DNA of 64,000 nucleotides, from the NCBI RefSeq assembly GCF_011761565.1, contig NZ_JAASRM010000001.1:1984139-2048138 (forward strand), in the 5' to 3' direction. Origin of the DNA: Rhizomicrobium palustre. GTDB lineage: Bacteria; Pseudomonadota; Alphaproteobacteria; Micropepsales; Micropepsaceae. The position numbers and the translations under genes were made by a program. The number at the start of each line of letters is the position of its first letter. Positions within the stretch are counted from its first letter, which is position 1. The notes beneath the pieces are model-generated. The model worked only from the letters and a program-made list of their open reading frames with translations. It was not told where the DNA came from and searched no databases. This document shows, one piece after another, positions 7,796-64,000 of the stretch.

Positions 7796-8070
7796 TTGGA
7801 CTCACGAACCTTGTTGTTTCTGGAGATGATGAAACGCGAATGGAGCCGCGCTTGCTATGCGGATTGTCCCCTATTCCGCTGCGTTACCCCTGGTAACAAG
7901 GGTCGGTATTTAGCCGCATAAGCGCTTCTCCCGATCAGTATTTGCACGTTCAGTTATCCAATTTTTCATCGCAGATACGCGTGCGCGAGGGCGGCTTTGC
8001 GCTTCACAGATGCCAGTCTTCGGCTCTAGGGTTTGGCGATACCTTCCTGCCGCTTTCACAAGGATTTTCC

Positions 8071-10803
8071 ATGCTGCAGACGACCCGCGCCGCCGCATTG
8101 GCCGCGCTTCTGGTTTTGGCATTCGCGGTCACTACGAGCCCTGCCGAGGCCCGCCACCGCCACCATCCCCATCATGCCGTTGCAGCCGCTAAGGCAGATC
8201 CCGCTTCGGTTGAGAGCAATGTTCTTCGGGCCAAGCTGAAGAACGGTCTGCGTGTAATTCTGATTAAAAATACCTTATCACCCGTGGTGGCGACCTCTGT
8301 GAACTACCTGGTGGGCTCCGATGAGACCCCGGAAGGCTTTCCCGGCACCGCCCACGCGCTCGAACACATGATGTTTCGCGGCAGCCCGGGGCTCTCGGCC
8401 GATCAGCTCGCCAATCTTGGCTCGATCATGGGCGGGGAGTTCAACGCCAATACCCGCGAGGCGCTGACGCAATATCTCTACACAGTTCCTTCGGAAGATC
8501 TCGACATTGCGCTTCGCATCGAGGCCTTGCGCATGCGCGATGTCGATGCCGATCAGGCAGCTTGGGAGAAGGAGCGCGGCGCCATTGAGCAGGAAGTGGC
8601 GCAGGATATGTCGGCGCCGGGCTACAAGCTTTATGAGCGCCTGCGCAAAGAGCTCTTCGCCGGCACGCCCTATGAGCACGATGCGCTGGGCTCACGCCCC
8701 AGTTTCGAAAAGACCACGGGCGCGATGCTGAAGGATTTCCATCGCACCTGGTATGCCCCCAACAACGCCATCCTGGTCTTGGCGGGCAATCTCGATCCGG
8801 CCGCAACCCTCGAAAAGATCAAGACCCTGTTCGGCGATATCCCGGCCAAGAAGCTTCCGGCGCGCCCTAAGATGACCTTCAAGCCGATCAAGGCGGGCGG
8901 TATCTTCACGATCGATTCCGACATGGCGAATTTCACGCGTGTCATTGCCATGCGCTTTCCCGGCCTGAAATCGAAGGATTTTGCAGCGCTGGAAGTGCTC
9001 GCGGATGTCCTCTCGAGCCGTCGTTTCGCGCTCTTCGATCTGGTGGCGCAAGGAAAGGCGCTTTCGGCCTCTTTCAGCATTCAGCCTTTGAAGGAAGCCT
9101 CCATCGCCTATGCCTCGGTCAGTTATGCGCCGGGTGTGGATGGCAATGCGCTTGAGGCAGATGTGCGGGCGATCCTGCAAAAGGTGGTCAAGGAGGGCGT
9201 CCCGGCCGATCTCGTGGAAGCGGCCAAGCTGCAGGAGAAGCGCGCTACCGAACGGCAAAAGAACTCGATCACTGATCTCGCCGATGTCTGGTCGGATGCG
9301 GTGGCGCTTTATGGCCTGAAATCCCCCGACGAGGACTTGAAGCGGATCGAAAAGGTTACGGTGGAGGACGTGAACCGCGTCGCCCGCCAATATCTCAACC
9401 TCGATCAGTCTGTCTCTGGCCTGCTCCTGCCCAAGGGTTCAGGCAAGGCGGTCGCCTCCACCAGCGCCACGGGCGGTATGGAGACAATCAATCTTGGCGA
9501 GGCCAAATCGACCGAGCTGCCGGCTTGGGCCAAGACAGCGGTGAACCGCCTCTCGGTGCCCGAGACTGCGCTAAAGCCCGTGGTCTCCGTTCTGCCCAAC
9601 GGTCTTAAGCTGATTGTGCAGCCGGTCGCGGTCAGCGATACGGTCGGTGTCTTCGGCCATATCCGCAATCGCCAGGAGACGCAGGCAGCTCCGGGCAAGG
9701 ATGGGGTCGCGACGCTGCTCGGTGCGCTCTTTAATTTTGGCACCGAAAAGCATGATCGTCTTGCCTTTGAGAAGGAGCTCGACGCTATCGGGGCGCAGGA
9801 GCATGCCGGGACCGATTTCCAGATTCAGCTTCTGTCTCAAGATTTCGAACGCGGCGTGGAACTCCTCGCTGAGCATGAGCTGTCCCCGGCTTTGCCGGAG
9901 ATGGCGCTGAACGCGATCAAGCCTCAACTCGCGCAAAGCGTGGAATCGCGTAACCATACCCCCGGCTATCTCGCCCAGCGCGCCTTTGTGGAGCATCTCT
10001 ATCCGGCGACTGACCCCGCCTTGCGTCAGGCCACGGGGGCAAGCGTCATCACCCTCACACTCGACGATCTGAAGGCCTATTACAAAACCGTCTACCGCCC
10101 GGACATGACGACCATTGTGGTAATCGGCAATATCACCCCGGAACGGGCGCGTGCGGCCATCGAGAAGTATTTCGGCGGCTGGAAGGCGGAAGGCCCCAAG
10201 CCTGTGGTCGATCTGCCGGACGCGCCCCCCAACAAGCCCGCCACCATCACCGTGCCGGATAGCGCGCGCGTGCAGGATCAGGTCTTGATGGCCCTCAATC
10301 TGGCCCTGAACAGATCCAACCCGGATTACTACGCGCTTGAACTTGGCAATCAGGTCTTGGGCGGTGGCTTTTATTCGTCGCGGCTCTCGATTGATCTGCG
10401 CAAGAATGCGGGGCTGGTCTATTCGGTGGGCTCCTCGCTCGCAGCCGGGCGCACTCGCGGCTATTACGTCGTGCAATATGCCTCCGATCCCGAAAACGTT
10501 TCCAAGGCGGCCAATATCATCACGCAGAATCTGAAAGCGATGCAGGAAAAGCCTGTGCCGCAGGAGGAGCTTGATCGCGTCAAGGCGATGGTGCTGCGCC
10601 AGATTCCTTTGAGCGAGGACAGCGTGGATGAAATCGCGCATGGCTTCCTCGAGCGGTCCGATCTCGATCTGCCGCTGGATGAGCCGAGCTTGGCCGCCAA
10701 GCGTTATGCCGAGATAACCGCGGCAGAAATCCAGGCCGCCTTCGCCAAATGGATCCGCCCGGGCGATCTGGTGCGGGTCAGCCAAGGTCCGGAACCGAAG
10801 TAG
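8071..10803 (+). CDS. Secreted M16 family zinc metallopeptidase (two-unit)
   Basis: This 910-residue protein has the two-module build of M16 peptidases of the pitrilysin/insulinase clan. The N-terminal module carries the inverted zinc motif HALEH (H95, E98, H99), with a plausible third ligand near E175; the C-terminal module lacks the motif, as expected. Residues 1-28 form a signal peptide ending in A-E-A, followed by a His-rich stretch (HRHHPHH), so the protein should act in the periplasm. I chose the ATG at 8071 because AAGGA lies six bases upstream and the signal peptide starts there; the in-frame start at 7942 would bury it. The gene stands alone and shares a bidirectional terminator with the convergent oxidoreductase. 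Substrates are probably peptides. It is distinct from the second M16 gene at 59600. Confidence 0.93.
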   Translation: MLQTTRAAALAALLVLAFAVTTSPAEARHRHHPHHAVAAAKADPASVESNVLRAKLKNGLRVILIKNTLSPVVATSVNYLVGSDETPEGFPGTAHALEHMMFRGSPGLSADQLANLGSIMGGEFNANTREALTQYLYTVPSEDLDIALRIEALRMRDVDADQAAWEKERGAIEQEVAQDMSAPGYKLYERLRKELFAGTPYEHDALGSRPSFEKTTGAMLKDFHRTWYAPNNAILVLAGNLDPAATLEKIKTLFGDIPAKKLPARPKMTFKPIKAGGIFTIDSDMANFTRVIAMRFPGLKSKDFAALEVLADVLSSRRFALFDLVAQGKALSASFSIQPLKEASIAYASVSYAPGVDGNALEADVRAILQKVVKEGVPADLVEAAKLQEKRATERQKNSITDLADVWSDAVALYGLKSPDEDLKRIEKVTVEDVNRVARQYLNLDQSVSGLLLPKGSGKAVASTSATGGMETINLGEAKSTELPAWAKTAVNRLSVPETALKPVVSVLPNGLKLIVQPVAVSDTVGVFGHIRNRQETQAAPGKDGVATLLGALFNFGTEKHDRLAFEKELDAIGAQEHAGTDFQIQLLSQDFERGVELLAEHELSPALPEMALNAIKPQLAQSVESRNHTPGYLAQRAFVEHLYPATDPALRQATGASVITLTLDDLKAYYKTVYRPDMTTIVVIGNITPERARAAIEKYFGGWKAEGPKPVVDLPDAPPNKPATITVPDSARVQDQVLMALNLALNRSNPDYYALELGNQVLGGGFYSSRLSIDLRKNAGLVYSVGSSLAAGRTRGYYVVQYASDPENVSKAANIITQNLKAMQEKPVPQEELDRVKAMVLRQIPLSEDSVDEIAHGFLERSDLDLPLDEPSLAAKRYAEITAAEIQAAFAKWIRPGDLVRVSQGPEPK

Positions 10804-57056: not shown

Positions 57057-59576
57057 ATGATGCGTTTGGGAATGAATGGGGCAGCCATACTTGCAGTTGC
57101 TGCGATTGGGCTTGCATCACCGGTATGGGCAGGCGAGCAGACATATTCCATCAATGTCGCTGCGGGATCGCTGGATTACGTTTTAACCCAGCTCGCGTCG
57201 CAAACCGGGCATCGGATCGTTTTTGATCCTTCGCTTGTAGCAGGCCTCAAGTCTTCGGGGATCTCTGGGAATTACAATCCTGAGGCGGCGTTCGAGCAGG
57301 TGCTCGCCGGGACTGATCTTCTCTTCAAAGTTTCAGAGGGCGGTGAATGGATCATTCTGGCGCGCAATAAGAACGCTGCGCCGCGCTCCGTCTCGGGCAA
57401 GCTTTTGAGCACGGTGCGCGTGCAGGCGGATGGGAAGTCCTTCATCAGGGCTGGCGATAACGGCTCCAGCGATCCGATCGCCACCGAAGGCACCGGCAGC
57501 TACACCGCGAAGGCCACGGTGCTCGCGTCCAAGACGCCATTGTCCATCCAGGAAACCCCTGCAGCGGTTTCGGTGATGACTCGCCAGATGCTGGACGACC
57601 GCCAGATCACAAGCCTTTCCGACAGCCTCAGCCAGCTTCCGGGTATTACGGTGGCACAGGGCGGCATCATCTCGCGCGGTTTTGCAATCACCAACATTCA
57701 GATCGATGGCGGCTCGCCGATCAACGTCGGCCAAAACAGCAGCGATTACCGCTCCGATTATTCCATGATCGATGACCTGTCCATCTATGACAGTGTTGCG
57801 CTTTTGCGCGGCTCTGCCGGGCAGTTCACGGGCGTCGGCGATCCCGGCGGTGTCATCAGCCTGGAGCGCAAGCGTCCGCTGGACCACGAAATGGTCGCCG
57901 TCGAACAGGGGTTCGGTTCTTATGACCACTACCGCACCGTGGTCGATGCCTCGTCGCCCTTTCTGTTCGGCGATCTCATGCGTGCGCGCCTGGTTTTGAC
58001 GCGGGAGACGAACAATTATTTCTACGACATCGCCTCGCGTTCTTTGCAGCAGGGCTATCTCAACGTCGAACTGGATCCGACACCATCGACCACCGTCAAT
58101 CTCGGCATGAAGGTCAACAGCTCCCGCAATACGCCGTGGAGCGGCCTGCCGACTTTGGATAGCGGTGCCATCGTTCGCTTTCCGCGCAACGCCTGCCTTT
58201 GCACGCCTTGGAGCTATGTTAAGACGTCGGGCCAGGAATATTTCGCGGAAGTTGGTCAGAAGCTCGGGGAGGATTGGTCCTTCCACCTCAATGCTTCCGC
58301 CAATATCCAGCACTCCAAGTCGGAGATATTCCAATACAAAATCGGCCGCGGCTATACCGGCGTCGTTGCCGGTGATCCCTTTTCCACGGTCGTTTCCACC
58401 TTCAAAACGCCGACCAAGTCGAACCAATATCTCCTCGATGCCAGCATGAACGGCAAGTTTTCCGTCCTGGGCGTCGATGTCGATGTGACGGGCGGCACCA
58501 ATGTTCAGACCATCAATCAGAAGATCACCGGCACGTCTCTGGCGTATTGGTATAACAATGCCGATATCATCAACTTCGATCCGAACAACTTCCCCAAACC
58601 GGCGGATTCTCAATATTACGACAACCAGGATGCCACGCCGCTTTCCAAGCAGACACAGGCCGGCGGCTATCTGACGGTGCGCATCTCGCCGGTGAATTGG
58701 CTGCATCTGACGGTGGGCGAGCGCTACAGCTACTACTCCTTCAAAATCATGCAGTACGGGCAACTCACTTCCTCGAGCTATGACAATCTGCCGACGCCGA
58801 GTTTCGGCCTGGTGGTCGATCTCAGCAAAGACACGTCTTTGTTTGCGACCACGCAGTCGATCTTCGATAGGGGCAATTACCTGAAGAAGTCCGGCGGTCT
58901 GGTCGATCCTTCGACCGGTTCGAATATGGAAGCCGGCATCAAGCAAAGCTGGGATGGCGGCAAGTTGATCGCCAGCCTTTCCGGCTACTACCTCAAAAAG
59001 AACAATATACCGAATTTCGACCCAACTGCCGGGTTCTCCATCGACCCGACGACGCAGGCGCAGTGCTGCTTCATCAGCGACGGCACCCAATACGAAGACC
59101 ACGGTGTAGAGTTCTCGTTGCAGGGCGCTTTAACCGATCGCCTGCAGACCGACATCTCCTATACCTTCAGCGAATTCAACGCCCATAACGGTTATCTGAC
59201 GAGCAATAGCCCGGTGCCTCTGACGGCGCCGAAGCATATGGCGAAGATTTGGTTTTCGTGGCGGCCCGAAATTCTCGACGACAAGCTCGTTTTGGGCTTT
59301 GGCGGGCATCTCGAAAGCAAGCTCACCGCGTCCGCGGAAACCATCTCCTGGGATCCGGTGAAAGGCAAAACCGTGTACATCTTCACGAAAACGCCCAGGC
59401 CGGGTTTTGGCGCCTGGGATGCGATGGTCAAATACGACATCACCGAGAACATTTCGGCGCAACTCAACGTCACCAATGTTTTCGACCAGACTTACTTCTC
59501 CAGCGTCCAGGTGGGCTCCGGAAATATTTACGCCCAGCCGCGTTCCTATCTGCTGACATTGCGCGGTCAGATCTAA
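57057..59576 (+). CDS. TonB-dependent siderophore-type receptor with STN signalling domain
   Basis: This 839-residue outer-membrane receptor begins with a signal peptide (cleavage after SPVWA), then an STN domain (about 28-85: YSINVAAGSLDYVLTQLASQTG, with GNYNPEAAFEQVLAGT). A plug domain follows (about 150-280: SVMTRQMLDDRQITSLSDSL, with GGIISRGF) and a 22-strand-type barrel ends in RSYLLTLRGQI. STN domains normally contact a FecR-like anti-sigma factor, yet none is encoded upstream. The first of two adjacent ATGs (57057, 57060) is used, behind a GGGG element. It is 23 bases before an M16 protease gene and in line with an ABC transporter, an arrangement seen in protease-associated import systems. 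Confidence 0.92.
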   Translation: MMRLGMNGAAILAVAAIGLASPVWAGEQTYSINVAAGSLDYVLTQLASQTGHRIVFDPSLVAGLKSSGISGNYNPEAAFEQVLAGTDLLFKVSEGGEWIILARNKNAAPRSVSGKLLSTVRVQADGKSFIRAGDNGSSDPIATEGTGSYTAKATVLASKTPLSIQETPAAVSVMTRQMLDDRQITSLSDSLSQLPGITVAQGGIISRGFAITNIQIDGGSPINVGQNSSDYRSDYSMIDDLSIYDSVALLRGSAGQFTGVGDPGGVISLERKRPLDHEMVAVEQGFGSYDHYRTVVDASSPFLFGDLMRARLVLTRETNNYFYDIASRSLQQGYLNVELDPTPSTTVNLGMKVNSSRNTPWSGLPTLDSGAIVRFPRNACLCTPWSYVKTSGQEYFAEVGQKLGEDWSFHLNASANIQHSKSEIFQYKIGRGYTGVVAGDPFSTVVSTFKTPTKSNQYLLDASMNGKFSVLGVDVDVTGGTNVQTINQKITGTSLAYWYNNADIINFDPNNFPKPADSQYYDNQDATPLSKQTQAGGYLTVRISPVNWLHLTVGERYSYYSFKIMQYGQLTSSSYDNLPTPSFGLVVDLSKDTSLFATTQSIFDRGNYLKKSGGLVDPSTGSNMEAGIKQSWDGGKLIASLSGYYLKKNNIPNFDPTAGFSIDPTTQAQCCFISDGTQYEDHGVEFSLQGALTDRLQTDISYTFSEFNAHNGYLTSNSPVPLTAPKHMAKIWFSWRPEILDDKLVLGFGGHLESKLTASAETISWDPVKGKTVYIFTKTPRPGFGAWDAMVKYDITENISAQLNVTNVFDQTYFSSVQVGSGNIYAQPRSYLLTLRGQI

Positions 59577-59599
59577 AGCAAACCTGGAGGATGTTGGGT

Positions 59600-62320
59600 A
59601 TGAGTGGTTCGTTCGACCAAGCCAAGGCGAGAGCGTGGCGTCTCGATGCAGCAGCGCTGTTGCCGATGCTGCATATGGCTTGGCATAGGGAGGTGCTTGC
59701 CAATGGCCTCACCGTCATTGTGCATAGCGATCCCTTGGTCCCGATGGTGTATGTCGATCTGACCTATCGTGTCGGGGCGATGGACGAGCCGCGGGGAAAA
59801 ACGGGGTTATCGCATCTGTTCGAACATCTGATGTTCACCGGAACAGACCGCTTCCCCGAGAACTACTCGACCCGCATGCAGGAAGCCGGGGCGGTCATGG
59901 TCAACGCCATGACCTCCCACAATCTGACGCGCTACTACCAGACCGCACCGGCTGCGATGCTCGATTTCATTCTGCAGGCGGAAGCCGACAGAATGGAAAA
60001 TTTTGTGCCGTCTCTCACCCATGAAAAGCTCGAACAGCAGCGCGCGATCGTGCTGGAAGAAAAGAGCGAAACGGAAGGAAAGCCATACGGAAAGATCAAT
60101 ATCTGGATGGCGGAAGGATTGCTGCCGGCGGGCCATCCGCGCCATCACCCCATCATCGGGTATGCGGACGACGTTAAGGGCGTGACGCTGGAAGTCGCGC
60201 GAGAGTGGGGTGCCAAACACTACACCCCCGCCAATGCCGTGCTGGTCATTTCGGGCGGTGTCGATGTGGATGCCGCGATTGCCTCGGTGAAGCGCTTCTT
60301 TGGACCGATTGAACCGGGCCGGGCTTCCGAGCAGGTCGTGGCGCGTTCCGGGCCGTGGCAGCCTGCTTCTGCACTCAGGGCCCAGGCGGCCATCGAAGTG
60401 CCGGGTAGACTCTATGCCTGCTGGTCCACGCCATCGGTCTGCACGGAGGGCCGCGATAACGTCGCATTGGAATTGGCGGCGCGCTTGCTCGCCGACAAGG
60501 CAGGCCCCTTGCATAAATACTTCGTCGAAGAACGCGGCGTGGCGGCTGGCGCGGGCGCCGTATTATGGCCCGGTCGGGGCTGTGGCAATTTCATCGTCGA
60601 TCTCACCTTGAAGGCGCCGGGCACGGAGTCTCTGTCGGAAGACGTCAGCCGCGTGATCACGCAATGGCTGGAAAATCCAATTCCTGATGGGCAGTTCCAA
60701 GCTATTCGCACGGCCTGCTTGGCGCAGTCGGTTGCCGCGCTGGAAAGTTTCGAGCGCAAGGCGCGCCTGCTGCAGGATGGCGAAGTCTTTCATGGCGATG
60801 CAGGCTGGTTCTTGCAGGAAGGGCGTATTCTCGCCGAGCTTACGGAAGAAGATGTGCGTTCGCTGGCAAAGCGCTGGTTGCGCCCGGAATTCTTTTCCCT
60901 GTTTGTCGATGCCGCACCGAAACTGAGCGCCGATGGGGCGCACACGGACGATAAGGTGGTGTCCTTCTCGCTGGATAATATCGCAGCCAGACCGCCACAG
61001 TGGCAGGAGGCGGTGCTCGCATGCGGGGCGCGGATTCGCCTTGTCCGCCGTCCAGGCGACGCGAGTTTTCACCTCCGGGCAATCGGCAAGGGCGGCATTG
61101 CCGCCGAACCGCGCGGCAAAGAGGGTATTGCGACGCTCGCCGCCTCAGCGCTTCAATTCGGGGCGGGACCGGATGACGGCAAAGCCCTGGCAGCAAGGCT
61201 TTCGGGCAGCGGTCTCAACGCGCGGCTGTCGGCGGCGGTTTCGGCGCAGCAAATGGATATCTCCGGCACGCGTCCTGCGCTCCACGCGGCCATTGCGTTG
61301 CTAGCCGATGTGATTCAGGAGCCGCATTTCTACGGCGAGGATTTCGAACGGCAGCGCTCCGCTATGGCGGGTATGGCCGAAACGCGTGCACAGCTGGCGC
61401 GTCAAAAAGCGATGCGGGCGCAATTCGCTGCGCTTCTCGGCAACGCGCACCGCTTGGCGTCGGCATGGCCCACCTCTCCCGAGCTGGCGCGTTCGGTGTC
61501 CACGCAAGACGTACTGTCTTTTCACGAAAGCGCGTTCGATCCGTCGCACACCGTCTTCTTTCTCGCTGCGGATATCGAACTCGACAGCATCGTTGGCATG
61601 CTGAATGCGGCGTTCAGCGCGCCGCGGCACCCGGTTTCCGGCGTGGCCGCAAGCGAGGAGGTCGGCCTCCGGCGCCAAGGCGGGATTTATCTCTTCGATG
61701 CGCCGGGCAGCACCTCGGTCGAGATTGCCGCACGTTGGCTGATGCGGCCGAGAAACGCCGACGTGGAAGCTGCGGCGCTTGCCTTCATGGAGGCGTTTTG
61801 CGGCAGCTTCACCTCGCGGGCCAACCAGCGCATTCGCGAAGAGCTGCGCTGGAGCTACGGCGTCACCGGTCAGATGTTCCAGCTGTTTCCGCGCGATCAC
61901 CTTCGGCTTTGTACGCTCGATACGACCGTGGCGGTGCCGCAGGCCGCAGCCTCCATCGGCGAGATCGAGACCATGCTTTCGGGGTTTCGCCAGGACCTCC
62001 CGCCGACGCAAGGCGAGATCGATCGCTTTAGAAGGTCGGAGCGGCAGCGTCTGGCGCGCATGAGCGAAACACCGATCCGCGCAATCGAAGCGATGGAGGA
62101 CATGTACTACCGCGGTGTGGCCAGCGGGGATCTGTCTTCCTATGTCGAGGCCTTGGAGGCGCTGGATACCGGTCGTATCATGGCTTTGTCGGATGCGATT
62201 ATGCCTGCTGGCGGCGAATTGGTGTGGACCGTGATTGGCGATGCCGCCATTGTCGGACCGCAGCTTGCGGACGCCGGTTACGCGGTTGGCGATACCGCCA
62301 AGCTTTGGGGCGATGCATGA
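59600..62320 (+). CDS. M16 family zinc peptidase of the import locus (PqqL/FusC-like)
   Basis: A 906-residue M16 peptidase of two half-barrels. The active site is HLFEH (H72, E75, H76), with a third ligand near E153 (QRAIVLEEKSE). The second half has no zinc motif. PqqL of E. coli and FusC of Pectobacterium, about the same size, cleave proteins brought in by an adjacent TonB-dependent receptor. Those act in the periplasm; here the N-terminus (MSGSFDQAKARAWRLDAAA) shows no signal peptide. The ATG at 59600 has GGAGG nine bases upstream; the ATG at 59591 touches that GGAGG and is less likely. The stop overlaps the transporter ATG (ATGA). Confidence 0.9.
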   Translation: MSGSFDQAKARAWRLDAAALLPMLHMAWHREVLANGLTVIVHSDPLVPMVYVDLTYRVGAMDEPRGKTGLSHLFEHLMFTGTDRFPENYSTRMQEAGAVMVNAMTSHNLTRYYQTAPAAMLDFILQAEADRMENFVPSLTHEKLEQQRAIVLEEKSETEGKPYGKINIWMAEGLLPAGHPRHHPIIGYADDVKGVTLEVAREWGAKHYTPANAVLVISGGVDVDAAIASVKRFFGPIEPGRASEQVVARSGPWQPASALRAQAAIEVPGRLYACWSTPSVCTEGRDNVALELAARLLADKAGPLHKYFVEERGVAAGAGAVLWPGRGCGNFIVDLTLKAPGTESLSEDVSRVITQWLENPIPDGQFQAIRTACLAQSVAALESFERKARLLQDGEVFHGDAGWFLQEGRILAELTEEDVRSLAKRWLRPEFFSLFVDAAPKLSADGAHTDDKVVSFSLDNIAARPPQWQEAVLACGARIRLVRRPGDASFHLRAIGKGGIAAEPRGKEGIATLAASALQFGAGPDDGKALAARLSGSGLNARLSAAVSAQQMDISGTRPALHAAIALLADVIQEPHFYGEDFERQRSAMAGMAETRAQLARQKAMRAQFAALLGNAHRLASAWPTSPELARSVSTQDVLSFHESAFDPSHTVFFLAADIELDSIVGMLNAAFSAPRHPVSGVAASEEVGLRRQGGIYLFDAPGSTSVEIAARWLMRPRNADVEAAALAFMEAFCGSFTSRANQRIREELRWSYGVTGQMFQLFPRDHLRLCTLDTTVAVPQAAASIGEIETMLSGFRQDLPPTQGEIDRFRRSERQRLARMSETPIRAIEAMEDMYYRGVASGDLSSYVEALEALDTGRIMALSDAIMPAGGELVWTVIGDAAIVGPQLADAGYAVGDTAKLWGDA

Positions 62321-64000
62321 GCAGCCCAGAGGCTGGTTCCTCCGGCTCACATGTGCAATCTGATCCCCAGAACTTCCGCCTGAACGCTCTTTTCTTCCGG
62401 CGGCTGGGCGGTCTCTTGCGCCCCTATTGGTTTCGCAAAGGCGCATGGCTTTCTTGGGCTATGCTGCTGGTGATGACCTTCGCCGGGTCCACCTACAGCA
62501 TCGTGGGTGGTGTGGTTTCCACGCTGACAGCGCGTCAGGCCGATGCCTTGGTCGCAAAGCAGGTAGGGCAGTATTGGTGGTTCTGGGGGCTGCTGACCGG
62601 CCTTGTGGTTCTGCGCTATCTCACCATCAATCTGCAGAATTACGTCAGTGCACGGCTTAATTTGGGCTGGCGCCAGTGGCTGAGCACGGAGCTCATCGAC
62701 CGCTATTTGCGCAACAAGACCTACTATCAGATCAACATCGATCGCGATCTCGACAATCCGGATCAGCGAATCCAGGAAAGCGTCTTTCCTTTTTGCGATG
62801 CCATGACCCAGGTTCCCCAGCGCGTGATGACGGCGGGGATCGATATCATGGTGCAGGTCGTCATTCTGATGGCGATTTCGCCCGCGATGTTCGTCGCGAC
62901 ATTGGTCTTTACGGCGGTTCAGGCCGTCCTGACCTTGGTGGTCTATAAGCCGCTCATTCGTCTGCAATGGAACAGCACGATTTCGGAAGCGGATTTTCGC
63001 TATGGCCTGCTGCACGTCCGCGATAACGCCGAGACGGTGGCGTTCTATAGAGGCGAGGAAGCCGAGCGCAAGCATCTCCTGGCGCGCCTCACCGATGCGG
63101 TCAAGCGGCAGCTCGACATCAAATACTATCAGATCAGGGTGAACATCTTTTACCAGATCCTGGAAATTGTTTGGGACGTTATGCCGATGTTCCTGATCGC
63201 GCCGCTCTTCTTCCAGGGGCATATCAGCTTCGGTGCTATCGCGCAGGGCGCTGCCGCCGCGATGATGATCAAGCAGAGCCTTGGTCTGTTCAGCCAGTTC
63301 ATCCCGATCCTCAGCGCTGCTGCGCCCAATGTCGTTCGTCTGGCCGAGATTCAGGAGAAGTTCGATCGCCTCGACGCCGATGCGCCGCGGGACGAGAAAT
63401 CTTCTCGCACTCCCCGCATCAATCTGGTGCGCGGCGCCGAAATGGTTCGATTGCAGGATCTCTCGCTCACCACGCCGGGCGGGGAGCAGAGCCTGTTTCG
63501 GAACCTCGATTTGACGGTTCCCAATTCCAGGCGCTTGTTGATCACGGGCCAGACGGGGGTTGGGAAAAGCTCTCTGCTGCGCGCTATCGCAGGATTGTGG
63601 AACCGCGGCAATGGCGTGGTCGAAGTCCCCTCTTCGGACAAGATGCTATTCCTGCCGCAAAAGCCTTACATGGTGCTGGGTGATCTTCGCAGCCAGCTTA
63701 TTTATCCCCGCCAGGAATCGGACATTAGCGACGAGGCCCTCGAGAAAGTGCTGGAGCGGGTTCGCCTGGGCGGCCTGGCGCAGCGCTTTGGCGGATTTCA
63801 GTCAGAACGCGATTGGGCGCGCGTACTCTCCTTAGGGGAGCAACAGCGCATTGCCTTTGCGCGGATTTTGACAAACCGGCCGTCCTACGTTTTGCTCGAC
63901 GAGGCAACCAGTGCCGTCGATTTGGCAACGGAAGAACTGCTGTATCAGCTTTTATTGGAAACCGGGGCTACGGTTATCAGCGTGGCGCACCGCACAAGTG
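62317..64000 (+). CDS. SbmA/BacA/YddA-type ABC transporter, fused permease-ATPase (3' end outside window)
   Basis: 561 codons are visible. The N-terminal part has six membrane helices (about 40-330) of the ABC_membrane_2/SbmA-BacA type, with LTINLQNYVSARLNLGWRQWLS and RNKTYYQINIDRDLDNPDQRIQE, the conserved family stretch. The ATPase domain has Walker A GQTGVGKSS near 411, a Q-loop near 450, an LSLGEQQRIAFARIL signature near 508, Walker B YVLLDEATSAVD near 527 and the H-loop SVAHRTS at the window edge. YddA-like proteins lie beside PqqL and YddB in E. coli. It would move peptides or a small ligand across the inner membrane. It starts inside the stop codon of the protease gene. Confidence 0.9.
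   Translation, partial: MSSPEAGSSGSHVQSDPQNFRLNALFFRRLGGLLRPYWFRKGAWLSWAMLLVMTFAGSTYSIVGGVVSTLTARQADALVAKQVGQYWWFWGLLTGLVVLRYLTINLQNYVSARLNLGWRQWLSTELIDRYLRNKTYYQINIDRDLDNPDQRIQESVFPFCDAMTQVPQRVMTAGIDIMVQVVILMAISPAMFVATLVFTAVQAVLTLVVYKPLIRLQWNSTISEADFRYGLLHVRDNAETVAFYRGEEAERKHLLARLTDAVKRQLDIKYYQIRVNIFYQILEIVWDVMPMFLIAPLFFQGHISFGAIAQGAAAAMMIKQSLGLFSQFIPILSAAAPNVVRLAEIQEKFDRLDADAPRDEKSSRTPRINLVRGAEMVRLQDLSLTTPGGEQSLFRNLDLTVPNSRRLLITGQTGVGKSSLLRAIAGLWNRGNGVVEVPSSDKMLFLPQKPYMVLGDLRSQLIYPRQESDISDEALEKVLERVRLGGLAQRFGGFQSERDWARVLSLGEQQRIAFARILTNRPSYVLLDEATSAVDLATEELLYQLLLETGATVISVAHRTS

Follow-up and report, generated by a model that had tools for sequence, protein, structure and literature searches.

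A putative polypeptide import operon with a signal-peptide-free M16 protease in Rhizomicrobium palustre

Protease-associated import is known from the FusA/FusC/FusD system of Pectobacterium and the YddB/PqqL/YddA system of E. coli. To our knowledge, the known cases of TonB-dependent protein import finish with periplasmic digestion. Both FusC and PqqL are periplasmic proteases (PMC6793856). A literature search of openly accessible papers recovered work on Fus and Ydd, and no account of the variant described below.

The window, the whole 64,000-nucleotide stretch analysed here, covers positions 1984139-2048138 of the 4.26-Mb one-contig genome of Rhizomicrobium palustre. Near its right end begins an island of eight co-directional genes coding for a TonB-dependent receptor, an M16 protease, an ABC transporter, ExbB, ExbD, TonB, a FecI-type ECF sigma factor and FecR, with the ABC gene stopping slightly beyond the window end (Table 1). 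The 23 bases between the receptor and M16 genes, the 4-base overlap between the M16 and ABC genes and the intact HxxEH motif agree with the first-pass annotation of these three genes. From ABC to FecR, neighbouring genes overlap or are 5 bases apart, save for 98 bases 5' of the sigma gene. Since all eight genes lie on the same strand with tight spacing or overlaps, they likely form a single operon, as judged from the gene layout.

Table 1. Features of the focal operon; coordinates without prefix are positions in the window
Feature	Coordinates	Strand	Remarks
TonB-dependent receptor, siderophore-receptor (FpvA/FauA/FhuE) type, signal peptide	57057..59576	+	839 aa; signal peptide followed by STN, plug and barrel
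Receptor STN signalling domain, residues 54-100	57216..57356	+	Pfam PF07660, E 6.3e-11
M16 metalloprotease, single chain, without signal peptide	59600..62320	+	906 aa
M16 zinc site HLFEH, residues 72-76	59813..59827	+	histidines and glutamate invariant in alignment of ten module M16s
M16 third zinc ligand E154	60059-60061	+	conserved in alignment of ten module M16s
ABC transporter, PF06472 membrane domain + ATPase, 600 aa	62317..64000, on to genome 2048257 (L002:8456-10258)	+	
ExbB	L002:10264-11109	+	beyond window end
ExbD	L002:11093-11512	+	beyond window end
TonB	L002:11509-12252	+	beyond window end
ECF sigma, FecI type	L002:12351-12872	+	beyond window end
FecR/DUF4880 anti-sigma	L002:12865-13827	+	beyond window end

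We propose, with rather better than even confidence, that this is a self-contained, horizontally acquired operon for polypeptide import, in which ligand-induced uptake over both membranes would be followed by M16 digestion in the cytoplasm. Once the ligand binds the STN receptor, FecR and the ECF sigma factor would relay the signal and switch the operon on, the dedicated TonB-ExbB-ExbD proteins would power passage over the outer membrane, and the PF06472 ABC transporter would take the intact ligand over the inner membrane. In many relatives a cytoplasmic thioredoxin, at times fused to the M16, would first reduce the disulphides of the ligand, which the cytoplasmic M16 would then degrade. The signalling and transport steps are read from domain content and protein families. 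Observed directly are which genes are present, how they are ordered and where they recur, their domains, the lack of signal peptides, the fusions of thioredoxin to M16 and the placement in clades. As ligand we consider a peptide or small protein with disulphides most likely, perhaps a metal-binding or antimicrobial peptide derived from a host or competitor; candidates range from nutrient proteins or peptides to metal-peptides and antimicrobial peptides.

Sequence searches placed the window receptor nearest FpvA and FauA, and the top fold matches of its structure model were FpvA structures. FusA and YddB were absent from its sequence matches and from the 50 fold matches listed, and BLAST against YddB gave no real similarity. 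The models of receptor and M16 are moderate (pLDDT 72 and 74; M16 pTM 0.48). On sequence and predicted fold, the window receptor is of the FpvA type with an STN signalling domain and falls outside the FusA/YddB family, whereas Hyphomicrobium receptors associated with the same ABC clade fall within it. The domain search found no STN match in YddB, in line with the earlier remark that the classical receptors lack this domain. An STN receptor, a FecI-type ECF sigma factor and FecR, the components of cell-surface signalling, occur here in one operon. One point against a polypeptide ligand is the siderophore-receptor fold, with which a small compound other than a peptide could also be the ligand.

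The proximity to the ferripyoverdine receptor FpvA, in sequence and in predicted fold, lends itself to another reading, namely siderophore or chalkophore piracy, in which a metal-peptide (pyoverdine-, ornibactin- or methanobactin-like) would be taken up and the protease would strip the peptide, freeing metal and amino acids. FecI/FecR regulation is typical for iron carriers, and one relative (L071) possesses an Asp/Glu racemase. We nevertheless consider such piracy unlikely: the focal operon contains no periplasmic binding protein, ferric-siderophore permease or reductase, and an M16 with a thioredoxin is ill-suited to D-amino-acid or cyclic non-ribosomal peptides. The Fur-box signal did not rise above that of shuffled sequences, in a test in which the E. 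coli control was likewise not discriminating.

The favoured reading, polypeptide import, places digestion inside the cell. The M16 N-terminus is MSGSFDQAKARAWRLDAAALLPM, and hydropathy revealed no signal peptide whichever of the two in-frame ATGs is taken as the start, confirming the initial observation. Module M16s from Sphingomonas, Pantoea, Klebsiella, LSJC7 and Rhodanobacter gave the same result; the controls PqqL and pitrilysin showed clear signal peptides in this test, as did the window receptor. These calls were based on hydropathy and the N-terminus rather than on a dedicated predictor. Because the M16 has no signal peptide, the protease and its digestion step are probably located in the cytoplasm; by this comparison with PqqL and pitrilysin it departs from the periplasmic proteases of Fus/Ydd systems.

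In the M16 tree, the window M16 pairs with the module M16 of Sphingomonas sp. Leaf21 as its sister (99), with that of L071 next (96). The grouping with FusC and PqqL that the first-pass annotation had proposed to check did not hold: a tree uniting the window M16, FusC and PqqL in one clade was rejected (p-AU 2e-59, from a quick tree with long branches), as was one joining the single-chain module M16s with FusC and PqqL (p-AU 4e-5, long branches again calling for caution). PqqL and FusC lead the M16 fold ranking with low TM-scores; given these scores and the moderate model, the fold ranks were left out of the membership decision. A PqqL search of 299 genomes produced no match and is uninformative. 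Module M16s occupy at least two positions in the tree, single-chain proteins on the one hand and two-chain proteins in Hyphomicrobium and Methylobacterium on the other, which we read as one transporter clade having apparently recruited a protease repeatedly. Since two M16 lineages accompany one ABC clade, the protease seems to be functionally required in the module.

Housekeeping M16 peptidases were considered as well. The 28%-identical M16s from same-genus and other same-class genomes (L023-L026) are unlinked to ABC or receptor genes, and a housekeeping identity for the operon M16 was rejected. The window also holds a second, unrelated long M16 gene (7897-10800), the product of which has a hydrophobic, export-like N-terminus and falls, in the tree, a long way from the M16 of the operon.

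In the ABC tree, the module transporters form one clade (SH-aLRT 100, stem 0.83), and YddA sits in a separate clade, also with SH-aLRT 100. The SbmA_BacA profile scored the window ABC at 24.8 bits versus 118.7 bits for YddA. The SbmA/YddA type first assigned to the transporter must accordingly be withdrawn, the separate clades and the weak score ruling out a YddA/SbmA-BacA identity; orthology of the set with YddA/PqqL/YddB is likewise ruled out by the M16 and ABC trees, the pairwise comparisons and the p-AU test. What stands of the original comparison with Fus/Ydd is the kind of system, and what falls is membership, the M16 not being of FusC/PqqL type and the receptor being of FpvA rather than FusA/YddB type; the earlier idea that this may be a distinct subtype is likewise supported. 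Among 385 same-class genomes the best ABC relatives reach only 36% identity. A plasmid search yielded a distinct ABC group at 43-48%, in Methylobacterium bullatum, Klebsiella pneumoniae and two Pantoea agglomerans plasmids, and in addition a Paraburkholderia ABC. This Paraburkholderia sabiae protein (L057:11971-13110), which also falls within the module clade, is encoded close to a very large NRPS gene and has no module around it.

Exporter-fold ABC proteins can export, which counts against import, and cytoplasmic M16-type proteases serve some peptide pathways, PqqF for example. The operon might on these grounds serve maturation and export, with the cytoplasmic M16 trimming a ribosomal peptide precursor, the ABC protein exporting the resulting metallophore and the receptor recovering it. 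We regard this as highly improbable, because a search for a precursor ORF common to the focal operon and its relatives found none, the operon has no modification enzyme, and neither the thioredoxin fusions nor the FusA-type receptors of the relatives fit.

Import, as proposed above, is a property that would be shared by a larger group of loci. The order TBDR-M16-ABC-ExbB-ExbD-TonB-sigma-FecR is identical in Sphingomonas endophytica and Sphingomonas sp. Leaf21, and the closest copies of the operon are sphingomonad. Two Pantoea agglomerans plasmids carry all components (ABC, FecR, TBDR, M16, sigma, TonB, ExbD and ExbB). A Klebsiella plasmid has sigma, TonB, ExbD, ExbB, two M16s, a thioredoxin-domain protein, a TBDR and two ABCs, with no annotated FecR within the stretch read. 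When species genomes were scanned with the ABC alignment, further members came from both Sphingomonas, a Sphingomonadales MAG, Pantoea coffeiphila, Enterobacteriaceae LSJC7, Rhodanobacter, Marinomonas spartinae, Hyphomicrobium, Sphingobium and Methylobacterium. In loci that span 15 kb or more, an M16 gene adjoins 17 of the 18 ABC genes of the clade and a receptor gene lies near 16 of them, versus none of 60 related ABC genes outside the clade in either case. These 60 outgroup loci, 18 of them from the same class as the focal genome, gave no match to the M16, receptor, TonB/ExbBD, sigma or FecR profiles, which were built partly from clade relatives and so favour detection within the clade. An M16 or receptor was not detected within reach at L058, L066, L069 and L077, some of which are short contigs. 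The receptor gene lies beside the M16 gene, as in Fus/Ydd systems, at the focal locus and in its relatives. The set recurs with conserved order, beyond chance. The gene-order check suggested at the outset came out positive and, with an M16 that is not of the housekeeping kind, this lends good support to the original call of protease-associated import. At one sphingomonad MAG locus (L071:11208-13093), a LuxR-type regulator and the Asp/Glu racemase replace sigma and FecR 3' of TonB.

Many carriers have plant-associated names or sources, and SbmA/BacA/BclA importers are protective versus host peptides (PMC12003926). Both points would suit detoxification of an antimicrobial peptide, whereby a plant or bacterial peptide is sensed, moved past the periplasm and destroyed in the cytoplasm, in analogy to the aid that BacA/BclA give rhizobia in surviving NCR peptides. 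We judge this quite improbable, since a dedicated high-affinity TonB-dependent receptor would draw the poison in, a pattern that nutrition fits better, and the SbmA_BacA score of the ABC is only 25 bits against 119 for YddA.

A further component, a thioredoxin-domain protein without signal peptide, is present in many module relatives. Three Hyphomicrobium proteins (L060:4677-6320, L070:3653-5371 and L070:11416-13425) join thioredoxin to M16 domains in one chain, which would place both activities in a common compartment and on a common substrate, and suggests that the substrate is a disulphide-bonded polypeptide. The thioredoxin gene is absent from the focal operon, three sphingomonad loci of the same order and the two P. 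agglomerans modules, where the cell's own thioredoxin may suffice. The receptor-slot protein of L070 has FusA (4e-33) and YddB (1e-16) as its only PDB matches; its counterpart in L060, 48% identical to it, matches YddB too. With FpvA-like and FusA/YddB-like receptors and both M16 types around it, a single ABC clade is paired with receptors of two unrelated types and with two types of protease, which ties this locus more strongly than anything else to Fus-type polypeptide import. More tentatively, the whole group could be a rare yet widespread mobile module that brings intact disulphide-bonded polypeptides through both membranes to the cytoplasm for unfolding and digestion by thioredoxin and M16 as a pair; with its interchangeable receptors, it would be the counterpart of Fus in the cytoplasm.

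At four loci (L063:7213-8085, L064:17464-18351, L069:12229-13104 and L055:16187-17026), the thioredoxin gene is followed by one for a protein of about 290 aa, from a poorly conserved family that matches nothing in Pfam, and at L050 and L061 a similar stretch is apparently fused to thioredoxin. The plasmid of Sphingomonas NY01 has M16, receptor, ABC and thioredoxin (L055:8872-16190), with an ABC that groups with YddA; from this locus, thioredoxin may also accompany Ydd-like systems.

The surroundings of the focal operon point to horizontal acquisition. Synteny with same-genus genomes ends at recQ, at approximately 55.75 kb of the window, and GC content is 55% at 56-60 kb versus approximately 61% nearby. 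Past the operon lie genes for TraD, a MobA/TraA relaxase-helicase and a tyrosine integrase abutting tRNA-Ser (L002:14479-17873; L154:1295-2777). A search for an att repeat of tRNA-Ser on the left side of the island gave none, and the left boundary was not found either. The operon likely lies within a genomic island, and this island is probably mobilisable.

Since both protease and thioredoxin are without export signals, the module predicts polypeptide entry into the cytoplasm through a defined ABC clade, and some 20 named loci, several of them in culturable plant-associated bacteria, are open to testing. The exchange of FpvA-type for FusA-type receptors around this one clade connects siderophore-style signalling to protein piracy. 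Among described systems, FecA/FpvA cell-surface signalling shares the STN receptor, the FecI-type sigma and the FecR with the focal locus, but it imports small metal carriers with neither an M16 nor a PF06472 ABC. The peptide microcin J25 likewise passes a siderophore-type receptor, FhuA, and an inner-membrane peptide importer, SbmA, to reach the cytoplasm (from a reference cited in PMC12003926); that route hijacks separate loci and has no protease and no dedicated regulation. The E. coli Ydd cluster brings together the same three functions, but the focal receptor has no detectable similarity to its counterpart, the M16s share 26% over 232 aa only, the ABC (26%) belongs to another clade, and PqqL is periplasmic (PMC6793856). 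Fus of Pectobacterium resembles the focal locus in combining a TonB-dependent receptor, a two-domain M16 and an ABC protein, and Hyphomicrobium members of this ABC clade even have a FusA-family receptor; the focal operon differs in its FpvA-type receptor with STN, in an M16 that falls outside FusC/PqqL and has no signal peptide, and in including FecI/FecR and TonB/ExbBD. The locus represents a form of protease-associated import that is new and recurrent and in which digestion is probably cytoplasmic, and it looks related in function to the piracy of iron from plant ferredoxin, with different parts and with cleavage moved to the cell interior.
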